A stretch of 57,647 nt of DNA, from the NCBI GenBank assembly GCA_016219275.1, contig JACRBM010000064.1:1-57647 (forward strand), written 5' to 3'. Origin of the DNA: Chloroflexota bacterium. Its GTDB lineage: Bacteria; Chloroflexota; Anaerolineae; UBA4142. Shown piece after piece: positions 5,089 through 54,956 of this stretch; the stretch's first letter is position 1, and every line of letters begins with the position of its first letter. A program made the position numbers and the translations under genes. The notes beneath the pieces were generated by a model. It made no database searches and was not told the origin of the DNA. It saw nothing but the letters and a program-made list of their open reading frames with translations.

Positions 5089-5111
5089 TACCTCCTTGAT
5101 CGTGATTGTTT

Positions 5112-5206
5112 ATCCTTGCGAAGGTTTGAAAGTGAATTCTCTAGAAATCCAATTTGTTGTCGCCGCGCGATTCTTCGGCAAAGCGATTGGCAACCTTCGC
5201 AAGGAT
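5112..5206. repeat. Paired CCTTGCGAAGG element, copy 1
   Basis: ATCCTTGCGAAGGTT at 5112-5126 is perfectly inverted at 5192-5206 with 65 nt between. Each arm is itself near-palindromic (CCTT-GCG-AAGG). Related copies lie at 34682-34737 and 50967-51024. The arms are conserved and the interior is not. Confidence 0.8.
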
Positions 5207-5223
5207 GCGTTGAGCAGATCCCC

Positions 5224-12684: not shown

Positions 12685-13974
12685 TTACGCGAGGAGCGCC
12701 CAGGGTTCTTCGATCAGATTGGCGAGCGCATCGAGGAATTGCGCCGCGCGCGCGCCGTCCACGACGCGATGATCGCACGATAACGTCAGGGTCATCATCG
12801 GGCGCACGACGGCTTGTCCCTTCACCGCAACCACACGCTCGGCGATGCGACCGACGGCAAGGATCGCGGCTTGCGGCGCGTTGATGATTGCGTTGAACGC
12901 GTCCACGTTGTACATTCCCAGGTTCGTCAGCGTGAACGTACCGCCGGCAATATCCGCCGGTTTCAGTTTGCCCGCGCCCGCGCGTGCAACCATGTCCTTG
13001 CGACGCGTCGCGATGTCGCCCATCGTCAACGTGTCCGCGCGGTGCACAACCGGCACGATCAAGCCGTCTTCAATTGCGGTCGCGATGCCGATGTTGATCT
13101 CGTCGTTGAGTTTGATGTTTCCATCAACCCAGCTTGCGTTGACGCGCGGATGATCGCGCAATGTGTGTGCGATGAGCTTGACGAGCAGATCGGTGTACGT
13201 CGGTTTGACGCCGACGCGTTTCTCGACGAGTGATGCGATACGTCCGCGCAATTCGACGAGCGCGCGCGCGTCCACCTCGCGCACAACGTAAAAGTGCGGC
13301 ACAGTCGTCCAGTTCGTCGTCATCCGTTCCGCCATCACGCGCCAGATAGTGGAAATGGGACGCTTCGCGTGGAGGTTAGAGGTTGGAAGTTGGAAATTGG
13401 ACGTTTCACGTTGGACGTTGGACGTTGGAGCAGTAGGAACATCTGACGCGATAATTGCGCCGTCGGGACCAGAGCCGCGCAGGGTTGCGAGATCAACATT
13501 TCGCTCGCTCGCCAGGCGACGCGCTTGGGGAGACGCGGGAATTTTTGCTCCCCTCACCTGTTCGCCGATTTTGCGAACGGGAGAGGGGCTGGGGGTGAGA
13601 GCAAGATACGCCAGCACATCCGCTTTCTCAACGCGCCCGCCGCCCGGTTTCACACGCGCGAGGTCAACGCCGTGATCCTCCGCGATTTTACGCGCGACCG
13701 GTGACACCGGTAGAGACGTTGCACGCAACGTCTCTACCGAATCAACGATCAGCGCGATCGTTTGCCCAACCGGGATCACATCGCCTTCGCGCGCGGTAAC
13801 ATTCGCGAGCGTGCCGGTCGCAGTCGCTTCGATCTCGACGGTAACTTTGTCCGTCTCAATCTCCATGATCGGCTCGCCTTTTGTCACTGCGTCGCCTTCG
13901 CGCTTGAGCCAGCGTAAAATTTTTCCGGTATCCTGCGCCATTTCGAGCGCGGGCATGATGATGTTTGTGGGCAT
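12685..13974 (-). CDS. Dihydrolipoamide acyltransferase E2 of a 2-oxoacid dehydrogenase complex, with two subunit-binding domains and repeat-derived linkers
   Basis: E2 transfers the acyl group from lipoyl-lysine to CoA. The lipoyl domain is residues 1-78 with Lys43 in EIETDKVTVEI. Two peripheral-subunit-binding domains are visible, VSPVARKIAEDHGVDL (about 90-122) and ASPQARRLASERNVDL (about 144-178). The catalytic core (about 205-429) ends with DHRVVDGARAAQFLDA, His near 402. All three linkers are coded by palindromic repeats: a 14-bp hairpin at 13709-13738 (VETLRATSLP), a CCCTCACC/GGTGAG element at 13546-13602 (LTPSPSPVRKIGEQ) and a TTGGAAGTTGGAAATTGG tract at 13371-13430 (TSNVQRETSNFQLPTSN). 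The gene follows E1 alpha/beta and the M24-like gene. No E3 is in the window. The oxoacid (pyruvate, acetoin or branched-chain) cannot be decided. Confidence 0.93.
   Translation of the reverse strand: MPTNIIMPALEMAQDTGKILRWLKREGDAVTKGEPIMEIETDKVTVEIEATATGTLANVTAREGDVIPVGQTIALIVDSVETLRATSLPVSPVARKIAEDHGVDLARVKPGGGRVEKADVLAYLALTPSPSPVRKIGEQVRGAKIPASPQARRLASERNVDLATLRGSGPDGAIIASDVPTAPTSNVQRETSNFQLPTSNLHAKRPISTIWRVMAERMTTNWTTVPHFYVVREVDARALVELRGRIASLVEKRVGVKPTYTDLLVKLIAHTLRDHPRVNASWVDGNIKLNDEINIGIATAIEDGLIVPVVHRADTLTMGDIATRRKDMVARAGAGKLKPADIAGGTFTLTNLGMYNVDAFNAIINAPQAAILAVGRIAERVVAVKGQAVVRPMMTLTLSCDHRVVDGARAAQFLDALANLIEEPWALLA
13371..13430. repeat. Degenerate TTGGAAGTTGGAAATTGGA tract inside the E2 gene
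   Basis: A tandem of GGTTGGAAGT/TTGGACG-type units, in frame, coding Thr/Ser-Asn-Phe-Gln peptides. It belongs to the same family as 47647-47683 (GT39 gene) and 53968-54081 (mutS2). Confidence 0.85.
13546..13602. repeat. GCTCCCCTCACC...GGTGAGAGC palindrome inside the E2 gene
   Basis: The two arms are complementary with small mismatches around GTTCGCCGATTTTGCGAAC. It is in frame and encodes the linker between the two subunit-binding domains. Related pyrimidine/purine palindromes lie at 22628-22685, 47160-47213 and 52961-53009. Confidence 0.8.
13709..13738. repeat. 14-bp perfect palindrome GGTAGAGACGTTGC inside the E2 gene
   Basis: GGTAGAGACGTTGC (13709-13722) and its inverse (13725-13738) are separated by 2 nt. 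It is in frame and encodes the linker after the lipoyl domain. Confidence 0.85.
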
Positions 13975-14048
13975 TCGACTCTCCGAGTTCCCTGATTTCC
14001 CTCAGTTCCCTGACTTCCCACAAAGGGAACTGAAGGAAGTAACGAAAC

Positions 14049-15623: not shown

Positions 15624-16607
15624 TTATTTCCCGCACAACATCTTCGCCATCTCAAACACACTCTGCTCCGTCGGCACGGTCAGGTCTTCGAGCACCGGCG
15701 AGAAGGGCACCGGCACGTCCAGCGCGCCCATGCGCTTGACCGGCGCATCGAGATAGTAGAACGCGCCATCCGCGATGACCGACGCGATTTCGGCGGTGAC
15801 GCCGTACTGCTCGTACCCTTCGTCAATCACGATGGCGCGCGACGTTTTCTTCGCCGACTCGACGAGCGTGTGCTTGTCGAGCGGCAAGGTCGTCCGCGGA
15901 TCAATCACCTCTGCACGGATGCCGATTTCCTTTAGCATTTCCGCCGCGCCGAGCGCGACCTGCACCATCGAACTCGTCGCGACGAGCGTGATGTCGTCGC
16001 CCGCGCGTTTAATATCCGCGACGCCAAATGGAATCGTGTACTCGTCCGTTGGCACAATGCCTTTGAGTTTGTACATCATCTTGTCTTCAAAAAAGACAAC
16101 CGGGTTTTCATCGCGAATCGCGGTCTTCATTAAACCCTTTGCATCGTACGGCGTCGAAGGAATCGCAACCTTTAATCCTGGGATATGGCTTACCCACGCG
16201 TGAAGTGATTGCGAATGTTGCGCGGCAGAGCGTCGCGTCGCGCCCATCGTCGTGCGAAACACCATCGGGACGCGCAATTTGCCGCCGGACATGTAATGCA
16301 CTTTGGCGGCTTGGTTTGCCACCTGATCCATCACCAAGCCCAGGAAATCGCCGAACATGATGTCCACGACCGGGCGCATTCCGGTCATCGCCGCGCCAAC
16401 GCCGATGCCGGAAAAACCTGGCTCGGAGATCGGCGTGTCAATCACGCGGTCTTTGCCAAATTCTTCAAATAAGCCGGACAGTACTTTGAACGGCGTTCCC
16501 GCTTCGGCGACATCCTCGCCGAGGATGAACACGCGCGGGTCGCGCCGCATTTCTTCCGCCAATGCTTCGCGGATCGCTTCGGCAAACGTGAGTTCGCGGT
16601 CAGGCAT
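15624..16607 (-). CDS. 2-Oxoacid dehydrogenase E1 component, beta subunit
   Basis: The transketolase-like pyrimidine-binding subunit of an alpha2beta2 E1, 327 aa. FILGEDVAEAGTPFKVLSGL (with the Glu that contacts the thiamine pyrimidine), DTPISEPGFSGIGVGAAMTG and RRSAAQHSQSLHAW are characteristic of pyruvate/acetoin/branched-chain E1 beta. ATG at 16607 is chosen with GAGG 6 nt upstream; the longer frame needs TTG. It lies just after E1 alpha, separated by an 82-nt spacer that contains a 20-bp palindrome. Confidence 0.94.
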   Translation of the reverse strand: MPDRELTFAEAIREALAEEMRRDPRVFILGEDVAEAGTPFKVLSGLFEEFGKDRVIDTPISEPGFSGIGVGAAMTGMRPVVDIMFGDFLGLVMDQVANQAAKVHYMSGGKLRVPMVFRTTMGATRRSAAQHSQSLHAWVSHIPGLKVAIPSTPYDAKGLMKTAIRDENPVVFFEDKMMYKLKGIVPTDEYTIPFGVADIKRAGDDITLVATSSMVQVALGAAEMLKEIGIRAEVIDPRTTLPLDKHTLVESAKKTSRAIVIDEGYEQYGVTAEIASVIADGAFYYLDAPVKRMGALDVPVPFSPVLEDLTVPTEQSVFEMAKMLCGK

Positions 16608-16633
16608 TGCATACCTCAAGAACGAGATTTATG

Positions 16634-16701: not shown

Positions 16702-17673
16702 CTATGCGTAAACATCTTCATCCACTTCGCTCACATCCGGATACGGCGCGTCGAGCGCGAACGCGACGCCAGATTCGACTTCGGCGTTTACATCAGCTTC
16801 GATTCGCTCAAGCACGGATTGATCCGTCAATGAATTACCAATCAACCAATTACCCAAAATTTTCAGCGGATCGCGATTTGTTCGCCATTCGAGTTCTTCC
16901 TCTTTCGAGCGATAGTACGCGCGATTGATGTCGCCGACGTGATGACCGTAATAACGGTACGTGTCGCACTGCAAAAATGCCGGACCTTGTCCGCGTCGCG
17001 CGCGTTCGACCAGACGTTGCATTGCCACATAAACCGCGTGCACGTCTTGCCCATCCACGATTTCCGCGCACATGCCAAACGCACGTGCGCGCGCGCTCAA
17101 CTCGCCGGCAGTCGTTTCGTTGTTATGCGTGTACTCGTTGTATAGATTATTTTCGCACACGTAAATCACCGGCAGTTTCCACAACTGCGCCATGTTCATC
17201 ACTTCGTACAGCAAACCCTGATTCATCGCGCCATCGCCGAAAAAGCAGACCGCGACCTGACCACTGCCGCGCATTTTCGCCGACATTGCCGCGCCGGTCG
17301 CGATGCCCGCGCTCCCGCCGACAATCGCGTTCGCGCCCAGGTTGCCAGAATCCGGATCGGCAATGTGCATCGAGCCGCCCTTGCCGCGACAATACCCGGC
17401 TTCCTTGCCCAGCAATTCCGCGAACATACGATCCACCCGCGCGCCTTTGGCGAGACAGTGCCCGTGCCCACGATGCGTACTCGTGATGTAATCGTCGCGC
17501 TGCAACGCCTCGCACACGCCAACCGCGACCGCTTCCTCGCCAGTGTAGAGATGCGCCAGTCCTGGCATTTTCGCGCCTTTGTAGAGTTCGTTCACCTGTT
17601 CTTCAAACGCGCGAATCTTTGCCATTTGTTGGTACATGTGCAAGGATTGTTCGAGGTCTATGTGGTCGGTCAT
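16702..17673 (-). CDS. 2-Oxoacid dehydrogenase E1 component, alpha subunit
   Basis: The thiamine-diphosphate-binding subunit of E1, 323 aa from ATG 17673 (GGAG 7 nt upstream). The ThDP motif GDGAMNQG...VCENN is present at about residues 155-185. GHGHCLAKGARVDRMFAELLG and GKGGSMHIADP are typical of pyruvate/acetoin E1 alpha, while YRYYGHHVGDI belongs to the phosphorylation-loop region. The gene follows the oxidoreductase with a 48-nt spacer. The subunits resemble the bacterial acetoin/pyruvate type; the substrate is not settled. Confidence 0.93.
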   Translation of the reverse strand: MTDHIDLEQSLHMYQQMAKIRAFEEQVNELYKGAKMPGLAHLYTGEEAVAVGVCEALQRDDYITSTHRGHGHCLAKGARVDRMFAELLGKEAGYCRGKGGSMHIADPDSGNLGANAIVGGSAGIATGAAMSAKMRGSGQVAVCFFGDGAMNQGLLYEVMNMAQLWKLPVIYVCENNLYNEYTHNNETTAGELSARARAFGMCAEIVDGQDVHAVYVAMQRLVERARRGQGPAFLQCDTYRYYGHHVGDINRAYYRSKEEELEWRTNRDPLKILGNWLIGNSLTDQSVLERIEADVNAEVESGVAFALDAPYPDVSEVDEDVYA

Positions 17674-17721
17674 TTGTAAACTCCAAAATGTGATGCGTAA
17701 AACGTTATTACCATTTACCAA

Positions 17722-21751: not shown

Positions 21752-21768
21752 ATCCTCCCAGGTGTTAT

Positions 21769-21915
21769 TTCAGATTTATGATTTCAGATTTTAGATTTTG
21801 TATTGATAGCGATTTTCCGCCGGGGCTGGGGGCGAAAATCTGCAATCGGAAATCTGCAATCGGAAATCTACAAGAAACAGTCGGGGCAGAACCCCGACCG
21901 TGACGGTTGTTCGAT
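21769..21915. repeat. Repeat-filled spacer between infC and rpmI
   Basis: TTTCAGATTTATGATTTCAG units at about 21769-21800 face AAATCTGCAATCGGAAATCT units at about 21836-21872. They are followed by a GTCGGGG-CAGAA-CCCCGAC hairpin at about 21880-21899. No coding sequence is seen. Confidence 0.75.
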
Positions 21916-45348: not shown

Positions 45349-45403
45349 GCCAATATGCCAGCTGTCTTTCCTAAAATCATAAATCTGAAATCTGAAATCT
45401 GAA

Positions 45404-46333
45404 ATGTTCTCCGTCGTCATTCCGAACTGGAACGGTCTGCGCTTTCTCCCCACGTGCTTGAACGCACTTCGCGATCAAACGTATCGCGATTTTGAAACGA
45501 TTGTCGTGGACGACGCTTCCACCGATGGCTCGCGCGCGCTCATCAAAAACGATTATCCCGAAGTGCGTGTGATCGCGCTCGAAAAAAATCGCGGGTTTGC
45601 GCACGCGGTCAACGCCGGCATTCGCGCGGCACGAGGTGACATCGTTGTTCTGCTCAACAACGACACCGAAGCCGATCCAAACTGGCTCGCCGAAATCGCG
45701 TGCGCGCTCGACGCGAATCCGCGCGCGGGAATCGTCGCGTGCAAATTGAAATTGTTCGACCAACGCAATCACATTCACAGCGCCGGCGATTTCTATCGCG
45801 TGGACGGCGTCCCCGGCAATCGCGGCGTATGGCAAAAGGATGAAGGACAGTACGATGATGCGCGAGGTGTGTTCGGCGCGTGCGGCGGCGCGGCGGCATA
45901 CCGTCAAACGATGCTCGCGGAGATTGGATTATTCGATGAAGAACTCGTCGCGAATCTGGAAGATGTGGACCTGAATTGGCGCGCGCGTTGGGCGGGCTAT
46001 GCGATTGCCTACGCGCCGCGCGCGATTGTCTACCATCACATCAGCGCGACCGGCGGCGGCGCGTACGGCAGTTTCTACGTCGGACGCAATTTTATTTTCG
46101 TGCTCGCAAAAAATTTTCCGGCGTCGCTTTGGAAAAAATACTGGACGCGAATCGTACAAGCCCAATTACAAATTACCAGGGATGCTCTTTTGAACATTCG
46201 CGGCGCGGCGGCGCGCGCACGCTTGCGCGGACAAATCGCCGGCGTGCTCGGTTTGCGCCACTGGCTCGCGCGGCGCGGCGAGGTGATTCGGCGCGTGAGT
46301 GATGCGGAAATCGAAGCGGCGCTTATAAAGTGA
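45404..46333 (+). CDS. Family 2 glycosyltransferase (rhamnosyltransferase-like)
   Basis: A GT-A enzyme of 309 aa. FSVVIPNWNGLRFLPTCLNA, VDDASTDGSR and VLLNNDTEAD give the nucleotide- and metal-binding parts; FDEELVANLEDVDLNWRARW carries the acceptor-site ED. The pattern is common in rhamnosyltransferases and polysaccharide GT2 enzymes. Its ribosome site is a GAAATCTGAAATCTGAAATG repeat (45372-45404) that runs into the start codon. Confidence 0.9.
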   Translation: MFSVVIPNWNGLRFLPTCLNALRDQTYRDFETIVVDDASTDGSRALIKNDYPEVRVIALEKNRGFAHAVNAGIRAARGDIVVLLNNDTEADPNWLAEIACALDANPRAGIVACKLKLFDQRNHIHSAGDFYRVDGVPGNRGVWQKDEGQYDDARGVFGACGGAAAYRQTMLAEIGLFDEELVANLEDVDLNWRARWAGYAIAYAPRAIVYHHISATGGGAYGSFYVGRNFIFVLAKNFPASLWKKYWTRIVQAQLQITRDALLNIRGAAARARLRGQIAGVLGLRHWLARRGEVIRRVSDAEIEAALIK

Positions 46334-47090: not shown

Positions 47091-49865
47091 ATGCGGATGA
47101 ACGCGGATAAGAATAACGAATTGTCATTGCGAGGAGCCGCAACGCGGCGACGAAGCAATCCCCGACCCCTCCCAACCCTCCCCTTGGCAAGGGGAGGGCT
47201 AGGGAGGGATGGATTACTCCTTGCCATTCTCCTCCTCGCCTTCGCGCTGCGCGTGTGGAACGCCGGCTCATTGCTCATGTGGGGCGATGAAGGATTCAGC
47301 GTCTATTCCGCCAATCACAGTTTGTATACGATTACGTTTGAAGGCAAGGATGTTGATCCGCACCCGCCGCTGTACTATTACCTCTTGCATTTCTGGCTTC
47401 CGCTCGGCGGCTATTCCGAATTCTCCGTGCGATTTTTTTCCGTGTTCTTTGGTACCGCGACTGTCGCGCTCGCGTTCGCGCTCGGCAAGCGATTGTTTGA
47501 TGCGCGCGTTGGCTTGCTCGCGTCCGCGTTGATGGCGATTGCACCGTTCGCGATTCACTATTCGCAAGAAGTGCGAATGTACGCGCTCGTCATCTTTCTC
47601 GCCGCGCTCGCCCTCTGGTTTTTCGTCCGACTCGTTCGAGTACACACTTCCAACTTCCAACCTCCAACCTCCAATTTCCAACTCTGGCTTGGCTTCTGGG
47701 TCGCGATGTTCCTGACCCAGTACTCGCTATACCAATCCGCATTCCTCTTCGTCGCGCAAGGACTGACGCTGTTGCCACTGCTCAAATCGCACTTTTGGTT
47801 TGTCGCGCGCTGGCTCGCCGCGTCGGTGAGCATCGTCGTGTTGTTCCTGCCCTGGCTCGCGTTGCATTCATCATCCGCGTTCGAAGATGTGAAAGGCGTC
47901 GCGGGCGATACGCGCCCGATGGACATCGCGACATTCCTGGGACGCGGTTTTGCCGGCTTGCTTCTCGACCCGACGACGCCACTTGCTAGTTCGCAGTTGC
48001 CTGCCGCGTTGTTTGCACTCGTCATCGCGGTCGGACTCGGCATCGCGATTTTCACGCGCACCGCGAAACTCGCGGACGGAATGCTCGCGTGGTCCGTCGC
48101 GATTCCGATGCTCGCGATGTATCCGCTCTACATCCTCTTGCCGCTGTATCGCGGACGCTTGTTCGCGCTCGCGCTCGTACCGTTGATGTTGCTCGTCGCG
48201 CGCGCGTTCGGCTTGCTCGCACAACGTACGCGATGGTTGTCCGTGCCAGTCGCGCTGGCAATGCTCGCGGCAATGGCGTTTGGGCTGAATCAGTACTATT
48301 TTCGCTACAATCGCTACAGCGCGGTCGTGGATGATTACATCCCGGCGATTCGCGCGATTGAGAAGATCGCGCAGCCGGGCGATGTGGTTTTATTTCACGC
48401 GTACTGGCAGGAAGGATATTTCCTCAGCCACCACACGGGTGCGCCATTGACGTATGGCAGTTTGGAAAAGCAAACCGATTTGCAGAACGCCGTCGCGCAA
48501 CCGCGCAACGTGTGGGCAATCGTCCAAGCGATCCCGCATCACGCCGCCGAAGATTGGCTCGCGCAAAATGCGTTCGCGCTCGCCGAGACCCAGTTCGGGC
48601 AGATGCGCGTGATTCAATATCGCGCCGATCCGCAACCGGCGGTCGCGTTGCCAACGCCGATTGTTTTCAACAACGGCATCACGCTCAACGGCGCGCGCAT
48701 CGAATCGAACGACACGCGCGCATCGGTACGGCTTGATTGGCAAGCCGCGCAAAAACCAGCGCGCGATTTCACGGTGAGCGTGCGCGTGACCGATGCGCGC
48801 GACGAAAATGTGATTTGGGCGCAAGCGGACGAGCAACCGGCGAATGGCACGCTTGCCACGTCGTCCTGGGAAGCATCCCAGGTTGTCGCGGATCGGCACA
48901 CGATTGCGATTCCAGCCGGGATGCCGCCGGGCGAGTACGCCGTGCGCGTGATGCTGTACGATTCGCAAACCGGTGCGCCGGCATTCATCGTTGCGCCGGA
49001 CAACGCGCGCGGACAAGTGGCGTTGATTGGTGCGATGACGATTCAACGCGGCGCGCCGCTCGCCAACGCGCCCCAGGTTTTGCGCGATATGTCCTGGGGC
49101 GATCTTGCGCTCATTGAAGCCAAAGTCGGCGCAAGCGACATCGTGCCGGGTGATGCCTTGCCGTTGACGCTCGTCTGGCGCACGCTCCAAACGCCGACGC
49201 GCGATGTGACGACAACTATCGAGATCGTTGACGCGTCCGGCAAAATTCGCGCGACGCGAATGTATCGTCCGGCGAATGATTCGTTTACGACGCGCGCGTG
49301 GCGCGCCGGCGAAACCTGGCTCGACGCGATGCGTTTGAACGTGGAGGCGGAATCGGCAAGTGGTCAAGCGACGGTACGCGTGAGCGTGGACGGACGCGCG
49401 TTCGTGGTTGCGCGCGTGATGATCCACGCGCGCCCACATCGTTTCGATTTGCCGACACCATGGTTTGCCAAGCGCGCGACGCTCGGCGACAGGATCCAAT
49501 TGCTGGGATACGATCTCCCGGAGAATCCGCTTCAAGTCAATGCGACGATTCCGCTCATACTCTACTGGCAAGCGTCGGACAAAATCGAAACGCGCTACAA
49601 AGAGTTCGCGCATCTGCTCGACGCGCAAGGCAACATCGTCGCGCAACGCGACAGCGAGCCGGATGCCGGCAACGCGCCGACGACGAGTTGGCTCAAAGGC
49701 GAAGTGATTGCGGATACACTCAATCTGGTCGTGCCGGAAAAATTCGCGCCGGGCGAATACACCTTGATCGTCGGCATGTACTCGGCGAGTACCGGGCAAC
49801 GTTTGCCAGTGGTCAACACGAATGCCGACCACCTTGTGTTGGCAAAATTCCGGCTGGGACAATGA
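47091..49865 (+). CDS. GT39/PMT-like multi-membrane glycosyltransferase with repeat-coded N-terminus
   Basis: A 924-residue membrane protein. Residues about 42-415 contain 10-12 helices. The first outer loop carries WGDEGFSVYSANHS with the Asp-Glu pair of GT39/PMT lipid-linked-sugar transferases. Residues about 520-920 hold two to three beta-rich extracytoplasmic domains (TVSVRVTDARDENV, GEYAVRVMLYDSQT, ITL-type strands). Residues 1-41 are coded wholly by spacer-type repeats: GCGGATGAACGCGGAT, GTCATTGCGAGGAG..GACGAAGCAATC and CCCTCCCC/GGGGAGGG. TSNFQPPTSNFQ (186-198) is a third. No other good start with an SD exists downstream, so the repeats seem to provide the N-terminus. It begins 2 nt after the methyltransferase. 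Confidence 0.85.
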   Translation: MRMNADKNNELSLRGAATRRRSNPRPLPTLPLARGGLGRDGLLLAILLLAFALRVWNAGSLLMWGDEGFSVYSANHSLYTITFEGKDVDPHPPLYYYLLHFWLPLGGYSEFSVRFFSVFFGTATVALAFALGKRLFDARVGLLASALMAIAPFAIHYSQEVRMYALVIFLAALALWFFVRLVRVHTSNFQPPTSNFQLWLGFWVAMFLTQYSLYQSAFLFVAQGLTLLPLLKSHFWFVARWLAASVSIVVLFLPWLALHSSSAFEDVKGVAGDTRPMDIATFLGRGFAGLLLDPTTPLASSQLPAALFALVIAVGLGIAIFTRTAKLADGMLAWSVAIPMLAMYPLYILLPLYRGRLFALALVPLMLLVARAFGLLAQRTRWLSVPVALAMLAAMAFGLNQYYFRYNRYSAVVDDYIPAIRAIEKIAQPGDVVLFHAYWQEGYFLSHHTGAPLTYGSLEKQTDLQNAVAQPRNVWAIVQAIPHHAAEDWLAQNAFALAETQFGQMRVIQYRADPQPAVALPTPIVFNNGITLNGARIESNDTRASVRLDWQAAQKPARDFTVSVRVTDARDENVIWAQADEQPANGTLATSSWEASQVVADRHTIAIPAGMPPGEYAVRVMLYDSQTGAPAFIVAPDNARGQVALIGAMTIQRGAPLANAPQVLRDMSWGDLALIEAKVGASDIVPGDALPLTLVWRTLQTPTRDVTTTIEIVDASGKIRATRMYRPANDSFTTRAWRAGETWLDAMRLNVEAESASGQATVRVSVDGRAFVVARVMIHARPHRFDLPTPWFAKRATLGDRIQLLGYDLPENPLQVNATIPLILYWQASDKIETRYKEFAHLLDAQGNIVAQRDSEPDAGNAPTTSWLKGEVIADTLNLVVPEKFAPGEYTLIVGMYSASTGQRLPVVNTNADHLVLAKFRLGQ
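47125..47213. repeat. Repeat pair at the start of the GT39 gene
   Basis: TGTCATTGCGAGGAGC..GCGACGAAGCAATC (47125-47160) is followed by CCCTCCCAACCCTCCCCTT / AAGGGGAGGGCTAGGGAGGG (47165-47210). Both families have other copies in spacers. Confidence 0.8.
47647..47683. repeat. CTTCCAACTTCCAACCTCCAA tract inside the GT39 gene
   Basis: Inverted orientation of the TTGGAAGTTGG family, in frame, between two membrane helices. Confidence 0.85.
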
Positions 49866-49903
49866 CGTTTGTGTTTTTGATTGTTTCGGATAGAATAGTG
49901 GGC

Positions 49904-49990
49904 GATTTAGGATTTCGGATTTATGATTTAGGATTTGCGCGACCGCGTCCCTTGAAATCATAAATCGAAAATCATAAATCATAAATCGGT
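49904..49990. repeat. GATTTAGGATTTCGGATTTATGATTT / AAATCATAAATCG repeat
   Basis: Degenerate units and their inverse around GCGACCGCGTCCCTTG in the spacer before the DPG-synthase-like gene; its right edge approaches that gene's SD. Confidence 0.8.
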
Positions 49991-50005
49991 TTCTGGAGAT
50001 TTGAC

Positions 50006-50923: not shown

Positions 50924-50966
50924 TTTGGATGTTGCACATTAGGTACATTGTATCTGCTCAGCCAAT

Positions 50967-51024
50967 CCTTGCGAAGGTTACGAATTTCTTTGACCAAGAA
51001 TCGCGCTTTCTAACCTTCGCAAGG
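50967..51024. repeat. Paired CCTTGCGAAGG element, copy 3
   Basis: CCTTGCGAAGGTTA (50967-50980) and its exact inverse (51011-51024) just after the HD-GYP gene. The interior differs from copies 1 and 2. Confidence 0.8.
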
Positions 51025-51035
51025 TTGAGCAACTA

Positions 51036-52520: not shown

Positions 52521-54956
52521 CTACCGACTAATCAATTTCGCAATCGTCACGCCTTCGCCGCCTTCGTGCGCTTCGGCTTCGCGAATTTGCGCGACGAGCG
52601 GATGCCCGCGCAACAAATCGCGTGCGAGTTTGCGAAGCGTGCCGGTGCCTTTGCCGTGCACAATGCGCACGTACGGCAAGCCGGCAAGATACGCGCGGTC
52701 TAGATATTTTTCGAGCGTGTCGAGCGCGTCATCCGCGCGCATCCCGCGCAAACTGATCTCGACGCCGGGATTCTCCGCCTCCGGCAATTTCACTTCACTT
52801 GTTTTCGGCACAAACGCGCTCATCGGCGGCGCAACCTTGTCGCCCAGTTCATTCGCTTTGAGCCGCACGCGAAAATTGCCGACCTGCACGTCCGCCCCGT
52901 TCGCATCGAGTGCGATGACCTGACCGGCTTGCTGCAGGCGCGCGACCCACACGTGATCGCCGACCCCCGCCCTACCCTCCCCCTTGAAGGGGGAGGGCAA
53001 GGGAGGAGGTTCGGTCGTCGGTAATTCTTTCGCGAGGTTTTCCAGTTTGGCTTGCTCACCAGCGACAAAATCGCGCGCCACTGAAACTGCGCGCCACTCT
53101 TGCCGCAGCCGATTCAGTTCTTCGCGCGCGAGCGCGATTTCGGCTTGCGCCTCCGCGTGCGCGCGATCCAGAATTTTAGCGCGGGCTTGCTCGGTTTCGA
53201 ATGAAAGGCGACGTGCTTCGGCGGCGCGTTGTTCCGCGTCGCGTTGCGCGATCTCCGCGTGCGCCTGCGCCGAGATCGCATCCTGCCGCGCGCGTTTGAT
53301 TTCCGCGAGCATTTTTTCGAGTTCGACATCCGCACCCGACAGCGATTCTTGCGCGCGCGCGATGATCGCGCGATCCAACCCGAGCCGCGTCGCAATCGCA
53401 AACGCGTTCGATTTGCCGGGCAAGCCCATCACCAAATGGTACGTCGGCGAAAGCGTTTCGACGTCGAACTCGACCGACGCGTTCTGCACGCCGGGCGTCG
53501 TTTGCGCGAACGCTTTCAACTCGGCGTAGTGTGTGGCGACGAGCGCCGGCACGCGCCGCGCAAGCAAGTCATCGAGTATCGCGCGCGCGAGCGCCGACCC
53601 TTCGACCGGATCGGTACCTGCGCCCAGTTCGTCGAGCAGGACGAGCGAGTGCGCATCCGCATCGCGCAAAATTTCGATGATGTTTTTGAGATGACCGGAA
53701 AACGTCGAGAGCGATTGCTCGATGGATTGCTCGTCGCCGATGTCGGCAAAGATGCCGGAAAAAATCGGCAAGCGCGACCCTGGGTTTGCCGGAATGTGCA
53801 AGCCGCACTGCGCCATCAACGCGAGCAAACCAATCGTCTTGAGTGTAACGGTCTTGCCGCCAGTGTTCGGTCCGGTGATGACCAGAATCGAAAACGCGCC
53901 GCCGAGTTCGAGCGATACCGGCACGACCTGGGTTGGGTCGAGCAAGGGATGACGCGCGGCAAGCAAATGGAGGTTGGAGGTTAGAGGTTGGAAGTTGGAA
54001 ATTGGCGGTTGGGGATTGGAGCGCGTTGCACCTTCCAATTTCCAATCTCCAACGTCGAACGTCCAATTTCCAACTTCCAATTGCGGCTCGACTCCGCGAA
54101 TCTCGACTGAGTACTTGGCTTTGGCGAACGCGAGGTCGAGTTCGGCGAGCGTCGCGACGGTCGCGTCGAGTGCATCAGCGTGCGCGGCGATGAGGTCGGT
54201 CAGCTCGCGCAGAATGCGTTCGATCTCGCGCGTCTCTTCGCGTTCAAGTTCGCGCACGCGGTTGCCCATCTCGACGGTCGAGAGCGGCTCGATGAACAAG
54301 GTCGCGCCGCTCGCGCTTGTGTCGTGCGTGATCCCAGGAATGCGCCCCTTGGATTCAGCGCGAATCGGAATCACATAACGTCCATCGCGCTCGGTGATGA
54401 TCGCTTCCTGGATGTATTTTGCGTTCGCGGCGGACGCGATGAGACGCTGCAATTTGTCCATCAGTCGTCCGCGCACGACGTTGAGTTCGCCGCGAATGCG
54501 CGCGAGCGCGGGCGATGCGCTGTTCACGATCTCGCCGCGATCATTCACCGCGCGCCCGATCGCGTCCACGACGGTCGGTAATTCTTCGAGCAACGCGGCG
54601 CGCGCGGCAAGGCGCGGGTACAGTTCGCCAAAGCGTCCAAGCGAACGGCGCAAGGTGCGCGCGGCGATGAGCGTTTGCCGTACTTCGAGCAGATCGGTCG
54701 GGGCGAGGATCGCGCCGATGCGTGCGGCGCGCGCGAGCGGTCGCACATCGCGCGCGCCGCCGACGCTCGTTTCGGGATGTTGATCGAGGAGTGCGACGGC
54801 TTCGGTCGTTTCGCCTTGCCGCCGCGCCAGTTCGTCCGGGTCGGTGAGCGGGGCGAGCGCGCGCGCGAGTTGTTCGCTCGCGGCAAACGCGGTGTGCGCG
54901 GCAAGGCGCGCGAGAATTTTGTCGAGTTCGAGAGCGCGTAAATAACGTGAGTTCAT
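52521..54956 (-). CDS. mutS2: MutS2 endonuclease/ribosome-rescue ATPase with two repeat-coded inserts
   Basis: 811 aa from ATG 54956. The lever/clamp region spans about 1-290. The ATPase has Walker A VITGPNTGGKTVTLKT, the DELGAGTDPVEGSA Walker B and THYAELKAFA. A long coiled coil follows (about 515-645), then a KOW-like segment, and the C-terminal Smr nuclease domain (ISLRGMRADDAL, VRIVHGKGTG). Two inserts are coded by repeats: residues about 292-330 by a TTGGAGGTT.. / ..AACTTCC palindrome (53968-54081) just before the ATPase (LHLLAARHPLLDP), and about 649-665 by CCCTCCCCC/GGGGGAGGG (52961-53009). Both keep the frame. MutS2 suppresses recombination or splits collided ribosomes. Confidence 0.95.
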   Translation of the reverse strand: MNSRYLRALELDKILARLAAHTAFAASEQLARALAPLTDPDELARRQGETTEAVALLDQHPETSVGGARDVRPLARAARIGAILAPTDLLEVRQTLIAARTLRRSLGRFGELYPRLAARAALLEELPTVVDAIGRAVNDRGEIVNSASPALARIRGELNVVRGRLMDKLQRLIASAANAKYIQEAIITERDGRYVIPIRAESKGRIPGITHDTSASGATLFIEPLSTVEMGNRVRELEREETREIERILRELTDLIAAHADALDATVATLAELDLAFAKAKYSVEIRGVEPQLEVGNWTFDVGDWKLEGATRSNPQPPISNFQPLTSNLHLLAARHPLLDPTQVVPVSLELGGAFSILVITGPNTGGKTVTLKTIGLLALMAQCGLHIPANPGSRLPIFSGIFADIGDEQSIEQSLSTFSGHLKNIIEILRDADAHSLVLLDELGAGTDPVEGSALARAILDDLLARRVPALVATHYAELKAFAQTTPGVQNASVEFDVETLSPTYHLVMGLPGKSNAFAIATRLGLDRAIIARAQESLSGADVELEKMLAEIKRARQDAISAQAHAEIAQRDAEQRAAEARRLSFETEQARAKILDRAHAEAQAEIALAREELNRLRQEWRAVSVARDFVAGEQAKLENLAKELPTTEPPPLPSPFKGEGRAGVGDHVWVARLQQAGQVIALDANGADVQVGNFRVRLKANELGDKVAPPMSAFVPKTSEVKLPEAENPGVEISLRGMRADDALDTLEKYLDRAYLAGLPYVRIVHGKGTGTLRKLARDLLRGHPLVAQIREAEAHEGGEGVTIAKLISR
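52961..53009. repeat. CCCTCCCCCTTGAAGGGGGAGGG palindrome region inside mutS2
   Basis: A 10-bp perfect arm with a 3-nt loop at 52975-52997, with degenerate flanks. In frame, coding PPPLPSPFKGEGRAG. Confidence 0.85.
53968..54081. repeat. TTGGAGGTTAGAGGTTGG..CCAACTTCCAA palindrome inside mutS2
   Basis: Arms of TTGGAAGTTGGAAATTGG units face their inverse around GAGCGCGTTGCACC, 114 bp, in frame. Reading the minus strand gives TSDFQ-like and NFQPLTSN peptides. Confidence 0.85.

Follow-up and report, generated by a model that had tools for sequence, protein, structure and literature searches.

An E2 gene of the dihydrolipoamide acyltransferase type, located in the window (the whole stretch of 57,647 nucleotides analyzed here), has three inter-domain linkers, each of which contains one dispersed DNA repeat. 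All three repeats are in frame and mutually unrelated. In-frame palindromic repeats are already known from Rickettsia (PMC10969869) and intragenic REPs from many bacteria (PMC3733652); the present case adds a core enzyme in which all linkers are made of repeats from several families, turning over between genera and paralogues. Multi-linker proteins of uncultured Chloroflexota thereby join the carriers of in-frame palindromic repeats.

The E2 gene and its three linker repeats

The gene occupies positions 12685–13974 on the minus strand and encodes 429 aa (Pfam and orthologue alignment). Pfam identified the lipoyl, E3-binding and catalytic domains of a 2-oxoacid dehydrogenase E2, in the order lipoyl domain (residues 6–76), two E3-binding stretches and catalytic core (residues 204–428). 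The reading frame is open, and the signatures of the lipoyl lysine (ETDK) and the active site (DHRVVDG) are unbroken, in agreement with a preceding sequence-only reading, which had held that the repeats keep the frame and leave the domains intact. E1-type genes adjoin E2 at positions 16702–17721 and 15624–16619 (names taken from the sequence, without a domain scan). The spacer upstream of E2 (positions 13985–14045) contains TTTCCCTCA-type inverted repeats, which are likewise found upstream of the E2 start in L002, from a second genus.

Each linker was characterized by codon reading, folding and genome search. Linker 1 (positions 13708–13739, minus strand) consists of the family A palindrome CGGTAGAGACGTTGCGTGCAACGTCTCTACCG and encodes SVETLRATSLP (residues 79–89); read in codons as GTAGAGACGTTGCGTGCAACGTCTCTAC, it is a near-perfect 28-nt palindrome with a single-strand DNA fold z-score of −8.2. 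Linker 2 (positions 13545–13604, minus strand; residues 126–143, peptide LTPSPSPVRKIGEQVRGA) is an imperfect hairpin of family B (CTCACCCC-CCCCTCTCCC type) with the arms CTCACCCCCAGCCCCTCTCCCGTTCGC..GCGAACAGGTGAGGGGAG, which read in codons as CTCACCCCCAGCCCCTCTCCC..GGTGAGGGGAG (z = −3.8). Linker 3 (positions 13372–13429, minus strand; residues 182–201, peptide APTSNVQRETSNFQLPTSNL) is built of TCCAANN heptamers with a period of 7, which encode a repeated seven-residue peptide. Because its fold z-score is only −1.9, we regard it as a tandem array and not as a palindrome. The proposal of three unrelated families, one per inter-domain linker, was thus confirmed by codon reading and genome searches, while the further proposal that all three are palindromic holds for linker 1, in imperfect form for linker 2, and fails for linker 3. 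In an AlphaFold prediction, the stretches with pLDDT <50 (residues 78–86, 127–142 and 182–224) coincide with the three repeats; the model was built from six homologues and reached a modest mean pLDDT of 66, so that low values are a mere indication of disorder.

The simplest alternative is ordinary linker evolution, in which Pro/Ser/Ala-rich linkers of a GC-rich genome become repetitive by chance. E2 linkers are indeed free to vary, and the orthologue alignment shows them differing freely in both sequence and length. Such hairpins, however, almost never arise in synonymous shuffles: linker 1 has a hairpin score of 15, a score ≥12 was reached in 0 of 500 shuffles of this E2 gene, and shuffles of seven E2 genes gave 10 hairpins in 3500. 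The same DNA units also occur at other loci, and relatives do not share the same linker residues in unrelated codons, the pattern expected of ordinary linker evolution. Chance repetitiveness is therefore extremely improbable.

Linker repeats in related genera and paralogues

Three other genera of the taxonomic family have E2 orthologues whose corresponding linkers also hold palindromes or arrays, frequently from other families. In the E2 gene of G001, linkers 1 and 2 share a GACCCGAAGGGTTT..AAACCCTTCGGGTC palindrome family, and linker 3 carries a different one, the CCTTCGACT..GCTCAGG repeat. In G002, linker 1 holds a family A copy whose loop differs, linker 2 has a 105-nt hairpin (−83.5 kcal/mol), and the CCAACC repeat of linker 3 forms no hairpin. 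In G012, linker 2 is occupied by a heptamer array and linker 3 by a palindrome. Linker repeats are likewise found in paralogous E2 genes of G011, G000 and G001.

Orthologues from other genera thus appear to have acquired insertions at these linkers independently or to have exchanged earlier ones. In a tree of E2 domain residues, our gene is sister to that of G001 (91/88), with several deeper forks open, and the repeat families differ. The family A copies of our gene and G002 have identical 11-nt arms at only 58% identity of four-fold sites, which points to recent insertion on separate occasions; judged from these sequences, independent insertion or later replacement is the best explanation for the presence of family A in both. 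Different selfish repeats have rewritten a well-studied and mechanically important linker across related genera, and this natural series makes the old question of whether in-frame repeats are tolerated or functional testable on a single enzyme.

The position of the hairpins is far from random. In seven E2 genes picked for holding a strong hairpin, all 11 strong hairpins lie in linkers, which make up 13–25% of the protein (P about 3e-9 under random placement). When the family's full set of 19 E2 genes is considered, the 3.8 kb of linker sequence contain 10 or 11 strong hairpins and the 19.9 kb of domain sequence no more than one, depending on a single L228 hairpin that pairwise alignment assigns to a domain and multiple alignment, together with its position just before VIPLSPMRKAIAEH, to a linker.

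Such a concentration could reflect selection for the hairpins or peptides themselves, either as mRNA structures that delay translation from one domain to the next or as peptides tuned for swinging-arm motion. Strong hairpins are denser in the linkers of the 19 E2 genes (261 per 100 kb) than in intergenic DNA (58 per 100 kb), and the same linkers have been occupied repeatedly in several genera. We nevertheless consider selection of this kind very unlikely: linker 3 forms no hairpin in our own gene or in G002, the linkers of 12 of the family's 19 E2 genes lack strong short-loop hairpins, no hairpin as strong with a short loop was found in E2s outside the family, and different families encoding different peptides are interchangeable. 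The repeats are probably retained by neutral tolerance rather than by benefit. A related idea, in which E2 linkers are standing acceptor sites where mobile palindromes are turned over as ready-made linkers, their mRNA hairpins possibly punctuating the co-translational folding of domains, appears distinctly unlikely.

Dispersal in the genome and survival within genes

The sequence-only reading had expected kin of the repeats in spacers and in other genes, and the genome searches bore this out, with further copies present for each linker repeat. The family A palindrome was found at 15 places in the 6.16 Mb genome, compared to 0 for the reversed pattern, and the heptamer pattern gave 477 matches versus 34 in controls. 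For the linker 2 family, 23 loose matches were obtained versus 2 in controls, and a related form, CCCTCTCCT..AGGAGAGGG, is present in 21 copies versus 0 in controls. Most other genomes of the taxonomic family also contain these repeat families, which are rare or absent in the sampled wider class.

Ten of the 15 family A copies are intergenic, three lie inside genes and two overlap gene ends. All three intragenic copies are read in the same frame, giving VETL(R/H)ATSLP, while one other frame would read TAG; in the two gene-end copies (L202 2506–2539 and L205 2486–2519), the stop codon is the TAG within GTAG. In 858 kb of the genome, using rough gene calls made for this analysis, hairpins occur at 3.8 per 100 kb of coding and 117 per 100 kb of non-coding DNA, making them ~31 times rarer in coding DNA. 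The same 858 kb contain 95 period-7 arrays, compared to 0 in a Markov control, with 29 of the 95 located in genes and many unrelated unit sequences among them.

Since the repeats are mostly intergenic, spread combined with a selective sieve is the likeliest account, and we consider it probable: REP-like palindromes and arrays spread, and copies are kept where they are in frame, free of stops and tolerated by a flexible linker. Several short repeat families, comprising REP-like palindromes of ~28–60 nt and period-7 tandem arrays, would have spread across this Chloroflexota family, with most copies arriving in intergenic DNA. Those landing in genes would survive only if the frame is kept, no stop is introduced and the extra residues are harmless. 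The three E2 linkers fit these conditions unusually well, so that different families would have entered them, disappeared and given way to others in different genera until DNA elements came to encode most of the E2 linker.

Beyond E2, repeats are located between Pfam domains in MutS, MutS2-like, Mfd, GH3, NRPS and other proteins, and the repair genes that carry them are MutS, MutS2-like, MutL and Mfd. The heptamers of linker 3 form inverted pairs elsewhere, for example in the MutS2-like gene of the window (positions 52521–54956), where such a pair lies between MutS domains III and V (positions 53968–54080, minus strand). The heptamer family also occurs in frame in the gene for a mannosyltransferase-like membrane protein (positions 47253–49865; array at 47646–47681, plus strand); both were located by array search and Pfam. 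Counter to a linker-only distribution, repeats are also found inside the folded domains of CrtC, ABC, PALP and UroD proteins, where residue counts exceed the profile length.

Overall, 25 of 38 insertions lie outside Pfam domains versus 16.8 expected (P = 0.0017), with domain fractions set by hand from best-stretch coordinates and in part estimated. The excess persists without E2 (22 of 35 versus 16.4 expected, P = 0.02) and is no longer significant once the best other cases are also left out, which weakens any general targeting of linkers. The suggested preference for flexible linkers is thus striking in E2 and only moderate elsewhere, and for this reason tolerance explains it better than targeting. 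In three NRPS genes, different heptamer arrays (L139, aa 2137–2150 and 823–835 of two genes; L141, aa 832–842) seem to occupy the same loop between the AMP-binding domain and its C-terminal domain.

Hairpin maintenance, a candidate mover and known repeats

For 22 distinct family B copies in G011, selected solely by their outer arms, pairing at the five inner positions reaches 97% and includes 46 double changes, values far exceeding those of shuffles and slid controls. Family A exhibits the same maintenance of pairing on two pairs. Inner pairs kept through double changes indicate that the hairpin itself is kept or remade while its sequence changes.

This covariation could also come from arm-to-arm correction, as postulated by a local origin of the repeats, in which slippage generates heptamer arrays, template switching at hairpins gives rise to palindromes or makes existing ones perfect, and the linkers are merely tolerant, with no mobile element involved. 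The many unrelated sequences of the period-7 arrays suit slippage, and the heptamer arrays may indeed have grown in place instead of being inserted. The outer arms of families A, B and D, however, are fixed across many loci and genera, which is not expected from local creation, and reversed-control matches are absent for A and D and almost absent for B. We therefore regard a local origin of the repeats as a whole as unlikely and infer arrival by insertion rather than growth in place.

Dispersed REP-type repeats have been linked to REP-associated transposases (PMC3116915, PMC6006769), and Y1 transposase genes occur in six of the seven genomes of the family searched, with only a single one in our own genome. 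In G012, two identical, perfect 28-nt GTAG..CTAC palindromes with family A architecture closely border one Y1 ORF (L181 1148–1841), and in G011 one Y1 gene has AGACC..GGTCT palindromes with family D architecture on both flanks. A Y1 transposase of the REP-associated type acting on single-stranded hairpins is thus the putative mover of such palindromes. Its role remains inferred because none of the searched genomes showed family A beside a Y1 gene, and family D did not appear beside one among the matches listed for them. Three further Y1 ORFs (L189 1462–2088, L185 1193–1735 and L192 1438–2067) each have, inside the ORF, a palindrome of the same family that flanks them. As in REPIN/RAYT systems (PMC3116915, PMC6006769), dispersed hairpins are present and look-alike palindromes flank Y1 genes in two sister genera (G012 and G011); in contrast, the E2 repeat families themselves were not found beside a Y1 gene.

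In their workings, the E2 linker repeats appear to resemble both Rickettsia palindromic elements and intragenic REPs. Rickettsia palindromic elements are ~150 bp long, with known copies largely within ORFs, and are translated in frame within unrelated genes (PMC10969869). The sequence-only reading had likened the linker repeats to them, and the likeness holds in that in-frame repeats occur in unrelated genes, here as open frames through the repeats. They are set apart by description: ours are 28–60 nt long and mostly intergenic (family A, 10 of 15). With regard to the palindromic unit of the Rickettsia elements, the linkers vary, linker 1 being a palindrome, linker 2 imperfect and linker 3 non-palindromic. 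Intragenic GTAG/CGTC-tagged REPs are mostly intergenic, with some in frame in genes and repair genes prominent, and flexible linkers or loops have already been suggested as their tolerant sites (PMC3733652). Our palindromes share with the GTAG REP superfamily a length of 20–60 nt, multiple copies and a mainly extragenic location, and repair genes carry repeats in both. The unpaired GTAG end tag of that superfamily is absent, however, as the GTAG of family A pairs with CTAC in a near-perfect palindrome. A further difference is that several families plus heptamer arrays fill all linkers of one gene here, with turnover between genera. In the literature searched, we found nothing on repeats in E2 linkers and no description of repeated repeat turnover at the same enzyme linkers; the two arm sequences of family A appear there only in unrelated papers.

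The period-7 arrays recall the heptanucleotide short tandem repeats of Beggiatoaceae and cyanobacteria, where TAACTGA arrays have been described (PMC4679880). Both share a seven-base unit and many dispersed arrays, far above chance in our case (95 versus 0), whereas the arrays reported here have degenerate units (TTGGANN and others), often form inverted pairs and are open in frame within genes. The window additionally contains a second heptamer family, AAATCNN, as arrays and inverted pairs (positions 21767–21881, 45360–45405 and 49898–50000), and a further palindromic family around CCTTGCGAAGG (positions 5106–5219 and 50952–51032), which is also found in a GH3 gene of the genome.
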